This document shows, piece after piece, positions 7,304 through 62,849 of a stretch of DNA of 64,000 bases; the stretch's first letter is position 1; each line of letters begins with the position of its first letter. The notes below the pieces were generated by a model. The model did no database searches, was not told the origin of the DNA, and was given only the letters and a program-made list of their open reading frames with translations. This DNA is from Microbacterium luticocti DSM 19459. Lineage in GTDB: Bacteria; Actinomycetota; Actinomycetes; Actinomycetales; Microbacteriaceae. Where the stretch lies: positions 62,001 to 126,000 of the forward strand of contig NZ_AULS01000005.1 in assembly GCF_000422405.1 (NCBI RefSeq), in the 5' to 3' direction. A program made the translations under genes and the position numbers.

Positions 7304-8748
7304 GCCGCCTCTTGACGGCGGATCTTGCCGCCCCGCGCGAACCAGGCCACCAGGAACGACAGCACCAGCGCGAAGAACACGCCGAGGTTCGCGTACGCCC
7401 ACACGCCGTCATGGCCGCCGACCAGGAACAGCAGGTACCCCTGCCAGTTGTTCCACGGCGCATCCTCGGCGAACCCGTTCACGACGAATCCCCAGCCGAT
7501 GACGGATGCCACCACCATGGTGCCGATCGAGACCCAGTCCCACGAACCGTAGCGGCCCTTCGGATCGAACAGGGCGTTCTCGTCGTAGTCGGCACGTCGA
7601 CGCAGGATGTCGGCGATGAGGATCCCCGCCCACGACGCCAGCGGCACGCCCAGGGTGATCAAGAAGCTCTGGAACGGGCCGAGGAACCCCTGTGCGAAGA
7701 ACACCACCCAGATGGTGCCCGCGGTGAGGATCACCCCGTCGATCGCTGCCGCAGACGGCCGCGGGATGCGGATGCCCAGGCTCAGCAGGGTCAGCCCCGA
7801 CGAGTAGATGCCGAGCACCGCCCCCGAGACCAGGGCGAGGATCGCGGTGATCAGAAACGGCACCAGCACCCACACCGGAAGGATCTGCGCCAGCGCGCCG
7901 ACCGGGTCGTTCTGCACCGCCTCGAACAGCTTCTGATCCGACCCGGCCAGCAGCAGACCGAAGATCACCAGGACCACCGGCGCGACCGAGCCGCCGAACG
8001 TGTTCCAGCCGACGATCGCGCCGTCCGATGCGGTGCGCTTCTGGTAGCGCGACCAGTCGGCGGCGATGTTGATCCACCCGAGCCCGAACCCGGTCATCAC
8101 CATCACCAGGGCACCGACGACTTGGCCGACGTTGCCACTGGGCAGGGCCATCACCGCCCCCAGATCGATGTGCGGGATCGCCAGCACGATGTACAGGATC
8201 GTGACGATGCCGGTCACCCAGGTGAGCACCGACTGCAGCTTCATGATGGTGTGGTAGCCGAGCACGGATGCCGTCACGATGAGCGCCGCGACGATCACGG
8301 TCGCGATCAGCTTGACGGCCACCCCGCCATCACCGCCCAGCTGGGTGATGATCGTCGCCGTGGCCAGCACAGCGGTGATGGCCAGGAACGTCTCCCAGCC
8401 GATGGAGGTGAGCCACGACACGATGCCGGGCACCTTCTGGCCGTGCACGCCGAACGCGGCACGCGAGAGCACCATGGTCGGCGCCGAGCCGCGCTTGCCG
8501 GCGATCGCAATGAGCCCGCACAGCAAGAACGAGACGACGATGCCGATCACCGCCACCAGCGTCGCCTGCCAGAACGAGATGCCGAAGCCGAGCACGAACG
8601 AGCCGTACGACATGCCGAACACCGACACGTTCGCGGCGAACCACGGCCAGAACAGGTCGCGGGGCTTCGCGGTGCGCTCTGACTCGGGGATGATCTCGAT
8701 GCCGGTGCGCTCGATGAGCGGGGACTCGGAACGGGCGGGTGCGGACAC
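7300..8748 (-). CDS. NCS1-family purine/pyrimidine-type permease
   Basis: A 482-residue polytopic membrane protein with about 12 hydrophobic segments. The opening RDLFWPWFAANVSVFGMSYG and the GKRGSAPTMVLSRAAFG stretch are hallmarks of the nucleobase:cation symporter-1 family (cytosine, purines, hydantoin, allantoin, thiamine precursors). The GTG at 8748 is chosen because AGGAG lies six bases upstream; a longer frame adds an Arg/Pro-rich segment that does not look real. It is the first gene of the leftward pair with the cysteine hydrolase, pointing to uptake and breakdown of a cyclic amide or nucleobase. Confidence 0.9.
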   Translation of the reverse strand: MSAPARSESPLIERTGIEIIPESERTAKPRDLFWPWFAANVSVFGMSYGSFVLGFGISFWQATLVAVIGIVVSFLLCGLIAIAGKRGSAPTMVLSRAAFGVHGQKVPGIVSWLTSIGWETFLAITAVLATATIITQLGGDGGVAVKLIATVIVAALIVTASVLGYHTIMKLQSVLTWVTGIVTILYIVLAIPHIDLGAVMALPSGNVGQVVGALVMVMTGFGLGWINIAADWSRYQKRTASDGAIVGWNTFGGSVAPVVLVIFGLLLAGSDQKLFEAVQNDPVGALAQILPVWVLVPFLITAILALVSGAVLGIYSSGLTLLSLGIRIPRPSAAAIDGVILTAGTIWVVFFAQGFLGPFQSFLITLGVPLASWAGILIADILRRRADYDENALFDPKGRYGSWDWVSIGTMVVASVIGWGFVVNGFAEDAPWNNWQGYLLFLVGGHDGVWAYANLGVFFALVLSFLVAWFARGGKIRRQEAA

Positions 8749-8864
8749 GGCGGCTCCTGCGGGTCGGTTGCCCCCATCCTGGCATCGGCGTGGCCGCCGC
8801 GCCAGGACCGCCGCGGGCTTGCGGTCGGGCCGGGCACGGCGCACCCTGGTGGAGGGGGTGCGAG

Positions 8865-9980
8865 ATGACACCGACACGCCCGTGGCCGGCCATGGCGGCG
8901 ATCGCTGTGGTGGTGTGCGCGGCGCTCGCCGGCTGCACCGGGGCACCGCCGGGCCCGACCCCGACCGTACCGCCCATCTCGACGGCTCCGGCCCCCGGAC
9001 CTTCTGCCGCCGGCGTCGTGACCACGGTCGCCACCGACCTGGTCTCGCCCTGGTCGCTCGTGCCGCTACCCGACGGCGGCGCGCTGGTGTCGCAGCGCGA
9101 CGACGGGGCGATCGTCGAGATCGGCGCCGACGGCGTCACCCGCCGGGTCGGCACGGTGCCCGGCGTGGTGCCCGGCGGCGAGGCGGGGCTGAACGGCATC
9201 GCGCTGTGGCACGGCGACGGCGGCACCTGGCTGTACGCGTACCACGCGGCATCCGACGACAACCGGGTGGTGCGGATGCCGCTGCTCGGCGCACCCGGCA
9301 CGTACCGACTGGGCGCGGCCGAGACGGTGCTGCGCGGCATCCGCAAGGCGCAGTTCCACAATGGCGGACGGCTGGCCTTCGGGCCGGACGGGATGCTGTA
9401 CGTGACGACCGGCGATGCCGGCGACCCCGCCGACGCGCAGGACCGGCACAGCCTGAACGGCAAGATCCTGCGGCTCACCCCCGAGGGTGATCCGGCGCCG
9501 GGCAATCCGTTCGGCACCGCCGTGTACAGCTATGGGCACCGCAATGTGCAGGGAATCGCCTGGACCCCGGACGGCACGATGTGGGCCAGCGAGTTCGGGC
9601 AGAACACCTGGGACGAGCTCAACGTGATCGTCCCCGGCGGCGACTACGGCTGGCCGGTGGTCGAGGGCATCGCGCACGACTCCCGCTTTCGCGACCCGGT
9701 GCTGCAGTGGCCGACCGACCAGGCGAGTCCGAGCGGGCTGGCGGCGCGGGGGAACGACCTGTACCTGGCGTGCCTGCGCGGCGAACGCCTGTGGCAGGTC
9801 ACCACCGACGGGGACCGGGTCGTGGGTGGGCCGGTGTCGCTGCTGGCGGACAACGGGCGGCTCCGGGATGTCGCGGTCGCGAACGATTGGTCACTGTGGG
9901 TGCTGACCGACAACACCGACGGCCGGGGCAGTCCGCGTCCCGGTGACGACCGGGTGCTGCGCGTGGCGGCACCGGGGTGA
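8865..9980 (+). CDS. Glucose/sorbosone dehydrogenase-family lipoprotein
   Basis: A 371-residue exported protein. The N-terminus has a hydrophobic signal ending in a lipobox (LAGC), then a Pro/Thr-rich linker and a six-bladed beta-propeller of the soluble PQQ-glucose dehydrogenase/HHIP type. Diagnostic strings are GRLAFGPDGMLYVTTGD and YSYGHRNVQGIAW. It is probably tethered to the outer face of the membrane and oxidises a sugar, with PQQ as likely cofactor. The ATG at 8865 follows GGAGGGGG. It is divergent from the permease gene and convergent with the DUF805 gene. Confidence 0.88.
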   Translation: MTPTRPWPAMAAIAVVVCAALAGCTGAPPGPTPTVPPISTAPAPGPSAAGVVTTVATDLVSPWSLVPLPDGGALVSQRDDGAIVEIGADGVTRRVGTVPGVVPGGEAGLNGIALWHGDGGTWLYAYHAASDDNRVVRMPLLGAPGTYRLGAAETVLRGIRKAQFHNGGRLAFGPDGMLYVTTGDAGDPADAQDRHSLNGKILRLTPEGDPAPGNPFGTAVYSYGHRNVQGIAWTPDGTMWASEFGQNTWDELNVIVPGGDYGWPVVEGIAHDSRFRDPVLQWPTDQASPSGLAARGNDLYLACLRGERLWQVTTDGDRVVGGPVSLLADNGRLRDVAVANDWSLWVLTDNTDGRGSPRPGDDRVLRVAAPG

Positions 9981-57421: not shown

Positions 57422-57495
57422 GGGGCGGTGGCCAAGCTGGTGAAGGCAGCGGGCTCATAACCCGACGATCGTGGGTTCAAGTCCCACCCGCCCCA
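57422..57495 (+). tRNA. tRNA-Met (CAT), attachment site of the integrative element
   Basis: A 74-nt cloverleaf with acceptor arms GGGGCGG and CCGCCCC, anticodon loop CTCATAA (CAT at 57456-57458) and T arm GTGGG/CCCAC. The G1-C72 pair argues against an initiator tRNA, although the GGG/CCC anticodon stem is initiator-like; a lysidine-modified Ile tRNA is also possible. Its 3' 20 bases are duplicated at 60722-60741, marking element insertion without damage to the gene. Confidence 0.9.
57474..57493. other. attL-like core (tRNA 3' end)
   Basis: This 20-bp stretch of the T arm and acceptor stem is repeated exactly at 60722-60741 in the same orientation. Confidence 0.85.
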
Positions 57496-57500
57496 CATAT

Positions 57501-57541
57501 GCCCCCGGACCGGTTCATCCCTGGTCAGGGGGCCTTTTTTG
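57501..57541 (+). terminator. Terminator after tRNA-Met
   Basis: GCCCCC-G-GACC (57501-57511) pairs with GGTC-A-GGGGGC and is followed by CTTTTTTG, a strong intrinsic terminator just inside the element. Confidence 0.85.
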
Positions 57542-57547
57542 TTCACC

Positions 57548-58732
57548 TCAGGCGGTGCGAATTCCGGCGTTTGCCCACACTTTGCCCACATCTGCGGGAG
57601 AGACGCGCTCGTTCAGGCGGGTGGCGACGGCGTCGAGGTCGTCGTCGAACAGGTCGGCGTAGATGTCGAGGGTCAGCGCTGCGGACTTGTGGCCGAGCAT
57701 CCGTTGCACAGCCTTCACGTTGGCGCCCGATGAGATCGCCAGCGATGCTGCGGTGTGCCGCAGGTCGTGCGGGGTGAGCCGCTCGATCCCCGCGGCCGCG
57801 AGACCGGCGAGGAACCAGCTGCGAGCGACGTGCGGCTGGCGGATGTGGAAGCCGCCCTCCTCGACGAACAGGTGATCGTCGGGTCCGTGACCGGCCATCA
57901 GATGCTCGAGCGCGGGCGCAAGGAACTCGGGGTAGGGGACGGTGCGCCGCTCCCAGCTCTTCGGCTCGCCCTCGTGGAAGATCCCATCGAGTTCGACGAG
58001 CGGTCGTCGCACGTGCAGGCGCCGGCGCAGCGGGTTCACGTCGCGCACCCGAAGTCCGATCGCTTCGGACCAACGCAGGCCGGTGTAGGCGAGCACGAGC
58101 ACGAGGACGGAGCGGACCGGGTCGGCGATCGCCGCGGCGAACCGCAGCACCTCGGCGTCGGTGAGGTAGCGGCGGGTCTTCTTTGTCTCTTTCTTCGGCA
58201 GGTTCTCGGCTCCGCGGGCCGGGTTCGTACGGATGCGGCCGGCGCGCTGCGCGTCGTCGAGAATGCCGGCGAGTACGCCGACGGCGCGCATCACGCTGGT
58301 AGCGCTGAGCGGCTTCGGGTCGGGGATCTTCTTCGCGTTGCCGAGTTTGCGGGCGCGCGGTGCGGTGCCCTTCTTGAGCTTCGTGATCCACGCTTCGACG
58401 TCATCGGCGTCAATGCCGCTGACCGGGCCATCGCTTCACCGGGGCTGAACGTACACGCGCCAGGCGATCTCCAGCGGCCGGTAGGACGAGGGCTTCAGGG
58501 TGCTCTTCTTCTCGAGCCACGCGGGCGCCAGCGTGCCGACGGTGACCTTGCCCGCGGCGGGGTCGACGTACTCGCCGCGCGCCTTCGACACGGTCACCGA
58601 TGCGAGGAACAGCTCGGCGTCGCGTTTCGTCTTGAAGCCGCGCTTGTCGGTCTGGGACTTGTCGGGCTTGCGGTAGCGGACTCGGTAGCGTTTGCCCGCG
58701 GCCGTGGCGCAGGGGGTGATCGTGCCGGCCAT
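57548..58732 (-). pseudogene. int: Tyrosine recombinase/integrase with an in-frame TGA
   Basis: Read through one stop, this is a 394-residue phage-type integrase: an N-terminal arm-binding region (YRVRYRKPDKSQTDKRGF), a core-binding domain, and a catalytic domain with Arg in TGLRWSEAIGL, His/Arg in PHDLRHTAAS, His in LGHKSAAL and Tyr in DIYADLF. TGA at 58436-58438 is codon 99, where the context (WRVYVQPR, stop, SDGPVSGIDADD) suggests an original TGG Trp; the frame is otherwise unbroken. The enzyme is probably inactive unless readthrough occurs. It starts 2 bp after the HIRAN-like gene and may share its transcript. Confidence 0.88.
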
Positions 58733-58734
58733 GG

Positions 58735-60030
58735 TCAGTCACCCCACATCGGCTCGGGCCGGGGCGCGTCTCCATGCAGGGAGGGGATCGTCTGCGGGGC
58801 CTTGAACCAGGCTTCGGGGATTTCGTGCGCTTTCGCTGCCTGCACGGTCACTTGAACGGATATCTGGCTGCCCTTCACGCGCAGCCATGCGGCGGCCGCC
58901 ATGCCCTGCATCTCGAGGTGCCGGATTGTGGGGATGAAGTGCTCACTCGATGCTGTGGATAGCTTGCCGACGACTTGCCCGTCGATGCTGGCCTCGACGC
59001 TGTCCTTCGCGCCGGCGCGCGCTGCGTGAGCGATCGTGAGGGTACCGAGCGCGTACCCGTCGCCCTCGTGGTTGACATAGTCGGTGAGCACGTCGAGATG
59101 GTTCTCCTCGCCGGTCAGCTGCAGGGCGCGCCCGGTGGGGAGGATGCTGTACGGTGCGGCCGGGGGGTCGTTCAGCGGCAGGAGTAGGTGCGGGGCGTCG
59201 AGCGCAACGCGCACGTTCGCGTGGATCTTGAGTTTGCGGCGGTCCTCCCACTGCTCGCGGGCGACGACCCAGAGGCGAGCGTTGACCTCGGGCGCGAAGC
59301 CCGCTTCGACGATGGGCGTGAGTACGGGCTGGTAGACGGCGGCGTCGTCACGGCCGAGGTATCCGACGTGCTGGCTGTTGATGACGACCATAACCGCGTT
59401 CGCGTCGTACCTGTTGCTCGGCTCGGGGATCAGATACGCGGCGACGTCCTCGAGGATGATCTCTTCATCACGCTTGGGGCGACGTCCGATGGCCTTCACG
59501 ATCGCGTCGGTGCGTGCGAACTCGCCCTCGACCTCCGTGCTCGGATAGGTGCCACCGAGCAGCCGGTACGGCTTCAGTGCGGGCTTGGCGGCACGCGGAG
59601 GGGCGGGTTGCGCGGCCGGGGGAGCGGGAGGTGCGCCGACGACGGGTTGCGGGGGCGCGGCTGACGGAGCGGGCGCGGCTGACGGAGCGGGTGCGGCTGA
59701 CGGAGCGGGTGCTGACGGAGCGGGTACGGCTGACGGAGCGGGTGCGGCTGACGAAGCGGGCGACGTCGTCGCCGCGGGCTGTGCGCCATACGGTTCCCCG
59801 TAGAGCATGGCGGACCGCTGGTCGGCGGCGCTGCGCGCCGAGCGCTTGACGGCTCCGCTCTTGGCCGCGCGCACTGCAACCGTGATCCACAGCACGATGG
59901 TTGCCACAATGCACAGCAGGCCCAACGCGGAGACCCCGCCGCCCTCGACTCCACCGATTCCGCCGCCGCCGAAGAAGAGCACGATGCCTGCCCCCAGCGT
60001 GATCCATGCCCACAGTCGGAGCTTGTCCAT
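58735..60030 (-). CDS. Membrane-anchored HIRAN-like protein with a repeat linker
   Basis: A 431-residue protein. Two hydrophobic helices (about residues 7-25 and 34-53) anchor it, then an Ala/Pro/Ser linker of APAPSA hexapeptides (about 90-130). The C-terminal 280 residues include a HIRAN-like motif (PEPSNRYDANAVMVVI, then HVGYLGRDDAAVY), a fold that binds DNA ends in helicases such as HLTF. No helicase or nuclease domain is attached, which is unusual. ATG 60030 follows AAAGGGG. It is the largest gene of the element and its likely cargo; function unknown. Confidence 0.8.
   Translation of the reverse strand: MDKLRLWAWITLGAGIVLFFGGGGIGGVEGGGVSALGLLCIVATIVLWITVAVRAAKSGAVKRSARSAADQRSAMLYGEPYGAQPAATTSPASSAAPAPSAVPAPSAPAPSAAPAPSAAPAPSAAPPQPVVGAPPAPPAAQPAPPRAAKPALKPYRLLGGTYPSTEVEGEFARTDAIVKAIGRRPKRDEEIILEDVAAYLIPEPSNRYDANAVMVVINSQHVGYLGRDDAAVYQPVLTPIVEAGFAPEVNARLWVVAREQWEDRRKLKIHANVRVALDAPHLLLPLNDPPAAPYSILPTGRALQLTGEENHLDVLTDYVNHEGDGYALGTLTIAHAARAGAKDSVEASIDGQVVGKLSTASSEHFIPTIRHLEMQGMAAAAWLRVKGSQISVQVTVQAAKAHEIPEAWFKAPQTIPSLHGDAPRPEPMWGD
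59658..59760. repeat. 18-bp tandem repeats in the HIRAN-like gene
   Basis: About five and a half copies of an 18-bp unit built on GGCTGACGGAGCGGGTGC, one shortened by one third, encode the APAPSA linker on the minus strand. Unit length is a multiple of three, so copy-number change keeps the frame. Confidence 0.85.
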
Positions 60031-60136
60031 CTTGTGATTCCCCTTTCCCCAGGTGTTCAGTTAGCCGCGTCGGAGACGCGAACAGTCATGCGACTTCAAC
60101 GCGCGCCCGCCATTGGCCGGCGCCCATCCGCCCCAA

Positions 60137-60148
60137 TAGGCTGGCCCC
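60137..60148 (+). promoter_or_regulatory. -10 box of a leaderless promoter inside the element
   Basis: TAGGCT at 60137-60142 lies six bases before the GTG at 60149, the same design as host genes. Confidence 0.5.
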
Positions 60149-60362
60149 GTGGGCTTTGAACAGATCAGAGCCGACGAGGGAGAACGGGCGCTCGCCTGGC
60201 TCGACACACACTGGAAGGGCCCTAAGATCTGCCCGATCTGTGGCGAATCTAGCTGGGAGATCGGCACAGTCAGTGAACTGCGAGCGTTTCAAGGCCCCGG
60301 GTTCCACGCTGGCCGCAGACATGGACACGATCATAGACGTCCGCGAACTCCTCGATGCCTGA
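60149..60362 (+). pseudogene. Small zinc-knuckle protein gene, probably frameshifted
   Basis: The first 48 codons look real: DEGERALAWLDTHWKGPKIC leads to a CPICG knuckle and SWEIGTVSELRAF. After that the frame becomes Arg/His/Ser-rich and would run through the terminator at 60388-60429 to 60481. The neighbouring frame instead gives TLAADMDTIIDVRELLDA and stops at 60362, 25 bp before the terminator, so a one-base change near 60285-60300 best explains the pattern. The intact product would be about 70 residues. Only one CxxC knuckle is seen. Confidence 0.6.
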
Positions 60363-60387
60363 GCTCACCGGCTAACTGTTCCAGCAG

Positions 60388-60429
60388 AAAGCCCCCGCAC
60401 ACCCTCGCTCGAGGTCGTGCGGGGGCTTT
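60388..60429. terminator. Bidirectional terminator inside the element
   Basis: AAAGCCCCCGCAC and GTGCGGGGGCTTT are perfect 13-base complements with a 16-base loop, and T/A stretches on both sides. It separates the zinc-knuckle gene from the convergent small gene. Confidence 0.9.
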
Positions 60430-60441
60430 TCGTCGTGGATG

Positions 60442-60540
60442 TCAGCACGGCTCGTCTGCGAGCTGCTCGTGCTCCTCGTAGCCCCTTTCTTCGTACTCCG
60501 CGGCATCTGCCTCGGCCGCGAGTTCTGAAAGTCGACTCAT
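60442..60540 (-). CDS. Acidic 32-residue small protein
   Basis: The product begins MSRLSELAAEADAAEYEERG and ends HEQLADEPC. More than a third of residues are Asp or Glu, and it is predicted to be one helix. An unusually strong ribosome-binding site (GAGAGGAGG, six bases before ATG) and a terminator just past its stop make it a convincing gene despite its size. It resembles no family I know. Within a mobile element, an inhibitor, anti-defence or antitoxin role is possible but only a guess. Confidence 0.65.
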   Translation of the reverse strand: MSRLSELAAEADAAEYEERGYEEHEQLADEPC

Positions 60541-60721
60541 CGGGTTACCTCCTCTCTTCAGTTATGCCCAGGAACCAGTGCATCCGGGGGAGGGAAGCAT
60601 ATCCCCTCCTGCCCACATTTGCCCGCACTCGACCGTTGGCGAGCGCTCTCGACGCCACCCCATCCCCACCCCAGCCGTCGCGAGATTATGCGGCAGAGCG
60701 CCGTTTCCGCAGGTCAGGATA

Positions 60722-60741
60722 GGTTCAAGTCCCACCCGCCC
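60722..60741. other. attR-like core
   Basis: It repeats the 20 bases at 57474-57493 exactly. The rest of the tRNA gene is not duplicated here. The flanks 60543-60721 and 60742-60830 show no gene or other feature. Confidence 0.85.
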
Positions 60742-60830
60742 TACCAGCCGAGCCACGGCGTCGAGGTCACACGCGGCATCGATCGCGCCGCACGGGTGCG
60801 CGGTGCGTCGCCGTAGCGCGTGGCACGACG

Positions 60831-62849
60831 CTACATCGCCGCGCCCAGGTACGAGTACTTCACGAACACCTCGTGTGCGACGCCCGCCTGCTCGAGCACA
60901 CCCTGCACGGCCGCGAGCATGTACTTCGAGTCCCAGCCCATGTAGAGGAAGGTCGAGCCGTCCAGTTCGTCCCACTGGCCGTTCCACGCCTTCTCGGGAA
61001 AGAGCGGCCCGCCCCGCCGCGCACTGTACGCCACCACGTCGTCACGGGCGTCGGCCCACAGCCGCCGGAACACCCGGTTGAACAGGTACTTGACGTCGTG
61101 CACCTCCCAGTGCTCGCCGCGGTACTCGACGTACTCGAACTCCCGCTCCCAGCCCCGCGGCCAGCCGCGGCGGCGCTTCGCGTCGAGCACCGGGGTCAGT
61201 CCGTCGTCGTCGATGAGCGTAGTCGCCGGCCGTCGCCAGATCTGCAGCAGTCGCTCGGTCAGCGCGACCGTTCGCGCCGCGATCGCCGCGGTGCCCCAGG
61301 CATCCGCCTCGGCCAGCTCGCGCGTGATGCCGACGGCGCTGGCTGCGTACGCCGCCCGCTTGTCGGGGAACGACGCGCCGAACGTGCGCTCGGCCAGCGG
61401 CTGCTCGAGCAGTGTCATGTTGCCCAGCGACTGGGCGAGCGCGCGGTGGCTGTTCTGCTCGTCGTCCGACAGGTCGGCGAAACGACGGATGCCGTCGCCG
61501 CTCCACTCGTCGCCGGGCGCCAGCGGGAACACGTGCTCGACGTCCAACCCGGCGGGAGAGGCGACCCCGGCGATCCGGCCCAGCACGTAGGCCGCGTACG
61601 GCAGATCGCCGTACTTCAGAGCGACGCGGATGCGTTCGTCGGAGGGCGTGATGCGTGAGATCGCGTGGATCAGCGCATCCTGACCCTGCTCGCGCGCCCG
61701 GCACAGCCGGGCGACCAGCCGGTCGTTGCCGAGCCCGACGATCTGCCGGCGCAGCAGCAGCGCCTGCACGTGCTCGAGCAGGTCGATCAGTCCCGCCCGG
61801 TCGAGCAGTCCGGCGCGATGGTCGTGGTAGGCGCGCAGCACGAGCGGGTACATGCCCCGTCCGAACGTGTTCACGTAGGCGAGCTGTCGCGAGATGTCGG
61901 GGTCGGGTTCCCGGGACGGGTCGAGCAGGACGGCGTACGCCTCGGCGAACGTGCGCCACCCGGTCGCGAGCGTGCGCAGCGTGTCGACGTCCACGCGCGG
62001 CACCTGGGCGCGGAACGCGTCGTAGACGCCGCGCTCCCCGGCGACGGTGACCTCACGTCCGGTGGTCATGATCAGGTAGTGCCGCCAGAACCCGGCGATC
62101 TGGTCGCCGGTGGCGCGTTCGATGGGCAGCCAGAACTCGTCCTCGATGCGGGTCTGCTGCTCGTGGCTCAGCCCCATCAGGATGTAGTTGTGGATGAGCT
62201 CGTGGTCGCGCAGTGGCTCGCCGGTCGAGTTGAGGCTCTCGAAGATCTGCTGTGCGTTCGCGCCGGCGCCGAGCGTGATCGACACGTGCTCGAGCTTGCG
62301 GATGCCGCGCCAGATGCGCGGTGCCTCGTCGGGGGAGACCTGGCTGCGGAAGAACGCGTAGTTGTCGTCGAACCGCGACTCGGGCCGCGGCGTGTCGTGG
62401 CGGTCGAGCACGACGTCCTCGAACAGGTCGGCCCACTCCCGGTGCGGCCGCAGCTTGGTGCGGTCGGGTGCGTCCTGACGCACCAGCACGCGGGCGAGCT
62501 CGGCGGCCAGGTCGGGGTCGGTGCCGCGGATGCTGTGGTGCAGCGCGGCGATCAGCAGCATGAGCGTGGTGATCCGCTGCTGCCCGTCGATGAGCACCAG
62601 GTCCTGCGAGTCGGGGTCGGACGCCGCGGCCGACAGGATCGATCCGATGAAGTGCATGGTCGTCGGCTCGGCATCGGCGACCGCCCGCACGTCGGCCAAC
62701 AGCTGCTCGCACCCGCCGATGTCCCAGCGGTACTGCCGCTGGTAGACCGGCACGACGATGGTCGTGGCCGGCTGCGAGAGCCACTCGATGGTGTTCACCG
62801 CGGTGGCGTCGACGTTGGTGGCACTGCCCGGGACCTGACTCACGTTCAC
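60831..62849 (-). CDS. DUF262/DUF1524 protein, GmrSD-like defence candidate
   Basis: A 672-residue protein. The N-terminal DUF262 domain has VPVYQRQYRW and IDGQQRITTL, a ParB/Srx-like nucleotide-binding module; the middle DUF1524 HNH-type nuclease region has LDVEHVFPLAPGDEW and SLGNMTLLEQPL. GmrSD enzymes with this layout cut phage DNA bearing modified bases. A C-terminal 130 residues (from about HWEVHDVKYLFNRVFRRLW) is not part of the standard pair and I cannot name it. GTG 62849 is used; GTG 62843 has better ribosome-site spacing. It lies 90 bp outside attR. Confidence 0.85.
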   Translation of the reverse strand: MNVSQVPGSATNVDATAVNTIEWLSQPATTIVVPVYQRQYRWDIGGCEQLLADVRAVADAEPTTMHFIGSILSAAASDPDSQDLVLIDGQQRITTLMLLIAALHHSIRGTDPDLAAELARVLVRQDAPDRTKLRPHREWADLFEDVVLDRHDTPRPESRFDDNYAFFRSQVSPDEAPRIWRGIRKLEHVSITLGAGANAQQIFESLNSTGEPLRDHELIHNYILMGLSHEQQTRIEDEFWLPIERATGDQIAGFWRHYLIMTTGREVTVAGERGVYDAFRAQVPRVDVDTLRTLATGWRTFAEAYAVLLDPSREPDPDISRQLAYVNTFGRGMYPLVLRAYHDHRAGLLDRAGLIDLLEHVQALLLRRQIVGLGNDRLVARLCRAREQGQDALIHAISRITPSDERIRVALKYGDLPYAAYVLGRIAGVASPAGLDVEHVFPLAPGDEWSGDGIRRFADLSDDEQNSHRALAQSLGNMTLLEQPLAERTFGASFPDKRAAYAASAVGITRELAEADAWGTAAIAARTVALTERLLQIWRRPATTLIDDDGLTPVLDAKRRRGWPRGWEREFEYVEYRGEHWEVHDVKYLFNRVFRRLWADARDDVVAYSARRGGPLFPEKAWNGQWDELDGSTFLYMGWDSKYMLAAVQGVLEQAGVAHEVFVKYSYLGAAM

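Follow-up and report, generated by a model that had tools for sequence, protein, structure and literature searches.

A 3.3-kb unit in a tRNA-Met gene of Microbacterium luticocti, a probable prophage relic with an intact HIRAN-domain gene

A short integrated unit occupies the 3' end of a transfer RNA (tRNA) gene for methionine, anticodon CAT, in Microbacterium luticocti DSM 19459. It lies in the 64,000-nucleotide stretch analysed here (the window; positions 62,001 to 126,000 of contig NZ_AULS01000005.1, our contig C5), which belongs to an assembly of 3.1 Mb in 27 contigs (genome G000). The unit is bounded by exact 20-bp copies of the tRNA 3' end, as the initial annotation had reported, and its main features follow each other in the window as listed.

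57422 to 57496, plus strand: tRNA-Met gene (anticodon CAT), the restored target gene, whose 3' end is the left attachment copy (ARAGORN; Rfam RF00005)
57474 to 57493, plus strand: attL core, 20 bp
57548 to 58732, minus strand: tyrosine integrase pseudogene with an in-frame TGA at codon 99 and the catalytic-motif blocks kept downstream of the stop
57572 to 57590, plus strand: left pair of arm-type-like repeats, TGCCCACA (starts at 57572 and 57583)
58735 to 60030, minus strand: gene of a 431-amino-acid HIRAN-domain protein, its stop codon 2 nt from the integrase ATG
60086 to 60130, minus strand: immA/irrE-like 3' end, 14 codons and a stop (RMGAGQWRARVEVA, then the stop), matching the gene that precedes the integrase gene in related phages
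60130 to 60150, no strand: putative junction of an internal prophage deletion, placed from the immA remnant
60610 to 60627, plus strand: right pair of arm-type-like repeats, TGCCCACA and TGCCCGCA (starts at 60610 and 60620)
60722 to 60741, plus strand: attR core, exact 20-bp copy

The direct repeat spans 23 positions (57474-57496 and 60722-60744), of which 22 are identical and the first 20 exact, and the bounded interval (57474-60741) measures 3,268 bp. The 20-bp repeat is not due to chance: when the 3.3 kb downstream was shuffled 300 times (by mononucleotides, not dinucleotides), the 20-mer was never matched better than 15/20. In the own genome, the second copy is the only other match to the tRNA region at an E value of 1e-3 or lower. 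Inside each end of the unit, about 0.1 kb from the core, stands a pair of TGCCC(A/G)CA repeats. All four exact occurrences of TGCCCACA in the 64-kb window fall within the unit, where the one at 60007 is part of the HIRAN gene; the left pair also adjoins the integrase gene at loci L430 and L431, and a single copy does so at L439. These pairs are putative arm sites of the integrase. The displaced right copy continues with CTACCA (60742-60747), the restored tRNA gene with CACATA (57494-57500), and the insertion may have exchanged a CCA-encoding tRNA end for one without CCA.

An integrase beside the tRNA gene had been annotated from the start, and the homology is borne out by Pfam (Phage_integrase, E 1.1e-23; Arm-DNA-bind_4, E 1.1e-5), but the gene is broken. 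Its two pieces lie in one frame with a single TGA between them, so the gene is interrupted, and a frameshift was rejected on the same ground. The pairwise ratio of non-synonymous to synonymous substitution rates (dN/dS) between the window integrase and the intact integrase of L321 is 0.30, inside the range of 0.05-0.45 spanned by three intact pairs (L431 was not included in this codon comparison), and the lesion therefore looks recent. The TGA might also be a sequencing error. The nearest relatives on viral contigs are those of L114 (78%; the same locus as L321) and of L115 and L116 (73%). Phage records gave 716 matches, 714 of them below 60%, and 148 of 366 genomes of the genus contain an integrase-like match at E<=1e-30. 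With tRNA-borne islands as the Islander work outlines them (PMC4383910), the unit shares the tRNA gene, the displaced 3' fragment in the same orientation, an integrase between the two and a length above 2 kb, and it departs from them in that this integrase is not intact. A second relic of the window integrase family lies in the own genome at 287348-287916 of contig C1 (L002, L369), where it adjoins a transfer-messenger RNA (tmRNA) gene and TGCCCACAC-type repeats. Its N-terminal half is missing, and help from this second integrase was rejected for that reason.

Elsewhere the same integrase family and attachment site belong to prophages. The comparison collections hold one genome per species, so all other genomes compared come from other species. 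The window arrangement of a tRNA-Met(CAT) gene next to a NIPA-type gene recurs at L115 and L116, and the core sequence is present in L114. Genomic context was fetched for 12 of the integrase matches, taken from the better-scoring ones, and three of the 12 lie at tRNA-Met(CAT) beside NIPA (genomes G355, G359 and G114); because context covers these 12 places only, counts of occupied sites are lower bounds. G355 and G359 have an open integrase gene followed by genes that read by eye as phage genes, and G114 retains the C-terminal part of the integrase only. The right copy in G359 (19/20) stands about 49.6 kb from the tRNA gene, with genes that again read by eye as phage genes between them, and the right end of this prophage has arm-like repeats, one exact and one variant.

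A shorter counterpart occupies the same tRNA gene in G059. This unit is about 2.3 kb long. In its integrase there is a stop, and the nucleophilic tyrosine of the catalytic motif is missing. The first 1,377 bp of the unit match the left end of the G359 prophage at 86% (alignment length 1,379 bp), and two alignments link its right part, which also has arm-like repeats, to the right end of that prophage (240 bp at 76%, 196 bp at 71%). Since both ends of the G059 unit match prophage ends, it is a prophage with the middle removed.

The gene order of related phages bears on what was lost from the window unit. At five of six related phage loci (L119, L120, L157, L319 and L320) the frame before the integrase gene ends at most 12 nt from its start or overlaps it, and in both cases tested, L119 and L319, this frame encodes a Peptidase_M78 protein of the ImmA/IrrE type (Pfam E 3.9e-9 and 2.9e-9). 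The end of such an immA gene is matched over 14 codons upstream of the window HIRAN gene (small search, E 6.6e-4; 44 bp at 80% against phages at the DNA level), over 17 codons in G094 (E 0.001) and over 51 codons in G059 (E 1.4e-17). With immA-end codons upstream of it, the HIRAN gene seems to have entered between immA and the integrase gene, and the deletion seems to extend outward from immA.

The 3.3-kb unit is thus probably a grounded prophage relic, which would consist of the two ends of a former prophage with the middle lost, the integrase dead and the cargo intact. A temperate phage of the family that uses the tRNA-Met(CAT) 3' end as its attachment site would have integrated here; to judge from related phages, the lineage of this phage had gained the gene of a HIRAN membrane protein between immA and the integrase gene. 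Later the prophage would have lost its interior, between a point within immA and one about 0.6 kb short of the right end, as the immA remnant and the sister relic in G059 suggest. The integrase would also have taken its stop codon, so that the unit is left with its two attachment sites and an intact cargo gene but no working integrase. A broken recombinase with remaining attachment sites and cargo is also what cryptic or grounded prophages show in the account of PMC6379469; compared with the prophages covered there, the window unit is only 3.27 kb long, with the interior nearly gone, both cores exact and the arm-like sites kept. If so, an internal deletion that spares both attachment sites can turn a tRNA-borne prophage into what looks like a minimal integrative element, and the G059 unit and the larger phages of the same integrase family are available for comparison.

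Several observations weigh against this course of events. The integrase has a single stop and no excess of amino acid changes, so its inactivation looks recent and a mobile phase as a small unit is possible. The search that gave the immA remnant was small and the remnant itself is short, and L321, whose integrase is the nearest relative (78%), has a different gene before the integrase gene, with no ImmA match. No complete prophage with a HIRAN gene between immA and the integrase gene was found. Constraint on the HIRAN gene may date from its time on phages, prior to the losses. The weakest link is the right end: apart from the core and the arm-like repeats, the right 0.6 kb found no homologue among the relatives searched, and the deletion in the window unit is for this reason inferred.

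The right end also provides the ground for a composite or tandem origin, in which the left end would come from one phage, and the right end, or just the second core copy, would date from an earlier insertion at this tRNA gene; the two copies would then never have flanked a common element. None of the phages matching the left end has a homologue of the right 0.6 kb, and tiny insertion scars occur at the same tRNA gene in other species. The right end has, on the other hand, arm-like repeats at some 0.1 kb from its core, like the right ends of the G359 prophage and the G059 unit, and we regard a composite origin as very improbable.

The initial annotation had suggested that the unit, a minimal integrative element, may be a satellite. 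Such a compact element would have moved as a 3.3-kb cassette of integrase and HIRAN genes, helper phages of the same attachment specificity supplying excision or packaging, and the stop codon would be a chance event of very recent date or an error in the sequence. Both cores and the arm-like sites are indeed intact, the integrase is otherwise conserved, the adjacency of HIRAN and integrase genes is shared with G094, and prophages that might act as helpers exist at the same site. The integrase is nevertheless stopped, its family at this tRNA gene is otherwise one of prophages, the comparable G059 unit consists of prophage ends, and the immA-like remnant suggests that neighbouring phage genes were lost. 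No second copy of the 3.3-kb unit was found in the 366 genomes of the genus, the nearest being a decayed one in G094. No replication, transfer, excision or packaging gene was recognised among the four unit frames tested against Pfam and PHROGs, a set that does not include all of the smallest frames; this agrees with the earlier statement that replication and transfer genes are missing. PICMIs, the minimal phage satellites of PMC10803314, share with the unit the very small size and a phage-type integrase. As outlined there, they encode an integrase, AlpA and a primase, and neither AlpA nor the primase, their replication module, had a match in the same four frames. On balance a satellite is unlikely, and the grounded relic is preferred.

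Sites without the unit are found in relatives, as expected of an insertion. The tRNA-region search matched 97 of 99 genomes, and 95 loci were analysed, the own genome and G044 being left out. In Microbacterium isolate WOFB01 (L036) the tRNA gene has a single core copy and stands 12 bp from a GmrSD gene, an uninterrupted site of the kind proposed as a check on the insertion. The closest flank relatives without the unit (L004, L200 in G091 and L208 in G098) also lack a second copy, and other genes separate their tRNA and GmrSD genes. Kin of the window integrase occupy the site at two of the 95 loci, L211 (G059) and L204 (G094), and a second copy of at least 17/20 occurs at three (L203, L211 and L235). 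G094 has the same cargo gene, open and at the same site, an N-terminal remnant of the integrase and no second copy. The same genes without flanking repeats had been named in advance as evidence against an integrated element, and G094 goes part of the way there; we read it as a further stage of decay. Second copies of the tRNA 3' end (18-19/20) at about 125-135 bp from the tRNA gene are present in L016, L203 (G010) and L235 (G019), and look like scars of lost prophages of the window integrase family.

The cargo is the unusual part of a unit that is otherwise ordinary in kind, and it has been little studied. One unusual protein does dominate the unit, as first described: 431 amino acids with computed hydrophobic stretches at about residues 10-28 and 33-56, a Pro/Ala linker, a HIRAN match at residues 199-239 and the C-terminal motif EPMW. 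The match to PF08797 barely reaches the curated cut-off (24.8 against 24.7 bits), and all six aligned members of the family match this profile at E<=0.1. EPMW is kept in five of the six; a DUF2510 domain replaces the hydrophobic N-terminus in three, and by eye the hydrophobic N-terminus is also present in G094, G128 and L370. A second HIRAN-like stretch at about residues 343-385 aligns with the first (hhalign P 9e-5, probability 59%, with few sequences; 0.7% in global mode), which makes two HIRAN-like repeats possible. Two AlphaFold runs gave models of low confidence (mean predicted local distance difference test, pLDDT, 41.8 and 38.4).

The family is rare. Relatives occur in seven of the 366 genomes, the own included, at E<=3.6e-11; a total of 78 genomes matched at E<=1e-3, and the weaker matches, short fragments, were treated as chance. 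A search across the bacterial family found relatives in two of 398 genomes at E<=1e-8, again including the own. Genome contigs gave 47 stretches and no relatives, plasmids gave no match, and phages gave two records of a single phage, at 28% over part of the protein. Viral contigs yielded no useful relative to a single-sequence query; an alignment query returned 30 loci, of which L370 is a good relative and the remaining 29 are shorter matches. A viral contig of 38.8 kb has one relative (51%), at about 0.3 kb from its end. In L366 (G321; 7375-9913) a related integrase gene (47%) is followed, just past its 3' end, by a gene of the family; in L368 (G186; 8586-9380) a truncated family gene follows a tRNA-Ser gene by about 0.2 kb. 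The family recurs near attachment-type sites.

The cargo gene also shows signs of being kept, in line with the suggestion that it benefits its host. It is open in both G000 and G094, and the two copies differ with a dN/dS of 0.20 (synonymous divergence, dS, 0.51) overall and 0.14 (dS 0.43) in the core; the neighbouring NIPA gene gives 0.21 (dS 0.60) for the same pair. The sequences adjoining the tRNA gene differ between G000 and G094, and G091, G098 and L004 are without the insertion. At the codon level, the HIRAN gene looks to be under purifying selection, consistent with selection on the cargo, and it was probably kept because it helps the cell. The gene, one of a rare HIRAN family with a membrane-type N-terminus, has survived its phage and may be of use to the cell.

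As to what the protein does, HIRAN domains are described in PMC11706625 as predicted to bind DNA and damaged DNA, and the HIRAN genes of actinobacterial islands treated there share with the window gene a tie to mobile elements. The window gene differs from those described in having no HipA or diDNase neighbour that we could see, a hydrophobic N-terminus, perhaps two HIRAN-like repeats, and an adjoining integrase gene. From its N-terminus the protein would be located in the membrane, and it may exclude or sense phage DNA. We tentatively consider it a membrane-tethered product of the DNA-binding type whose gene serves lysogenic conversion, by superinfection exclusion or defence. It might instead serve phage or genome maintenance, such as DNA repair or fork protection at the membrane, and not phage exclusion. 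The predicted binding of DNA and damaged DNA would suit such a role, and in the congeners L364 and L367 the gene stands amid genes that read by eye as host genes; the hydrophobic N-terminus, the rarity and the prophage linkage would better suit lysogenic conversion, and a maintenance function seems somewhat doubtful. A bolder proposal would make the HIRAN gene, integrase gene and attachment sites a compact and recently mobile cassette that parasitises tRNA-Met phages, its product a new class of membrane-tethered double-HIRAN proteins that recognise phage DNA as it enters at the membrane and stop it, and the loss of the integrase the step by which the host fixed the cassette; this we hold to be quite improbable. 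Our literature searches found no account of the 3.3-kb unit or of such a HIRAN protein, which does not prove that none exists.

About 0.7 kb of the unit lies beyond the 431-amino-acid gene and, besides the immA remnant and the right end, holds three minor features.

60149 to 60313, plus strand: apparently truncated reading frame, of which the 5' part remains, zinc-ribbon-like by eye (Pfam E 0.066, below the cut-off)
60388 to 60429, no strand: terminator-like inverted repeat, found by eye (86% self-match)
60442 to 60540, minus strand: possible acidic frame of 32 amino acids with GGAGG upstream (best relative elsewhere only at E 0.087)

A search for relatives of the zinc-ribbon-like frame found none. 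To the right of the unit follows a GmrSD-type gene (60831-62849) in which Pfam finds both domains of GmrSD; it is related to type IV restriction enzymes and 83% identical to that of Microbacterium sp. SYP-A9085. Its membership in the unit was rejected: GmrSD relatives stand near a CAT tRNA gene in 23 of the 80 loci kept, nearly all of them without kin of the window integrase there. The tRNA-Met gene itself appears inverted in place relative to NIPA, and to GmrSD where present, at L041, L072, L081, L196-L198, L203, L209, L210, L212 and L218.

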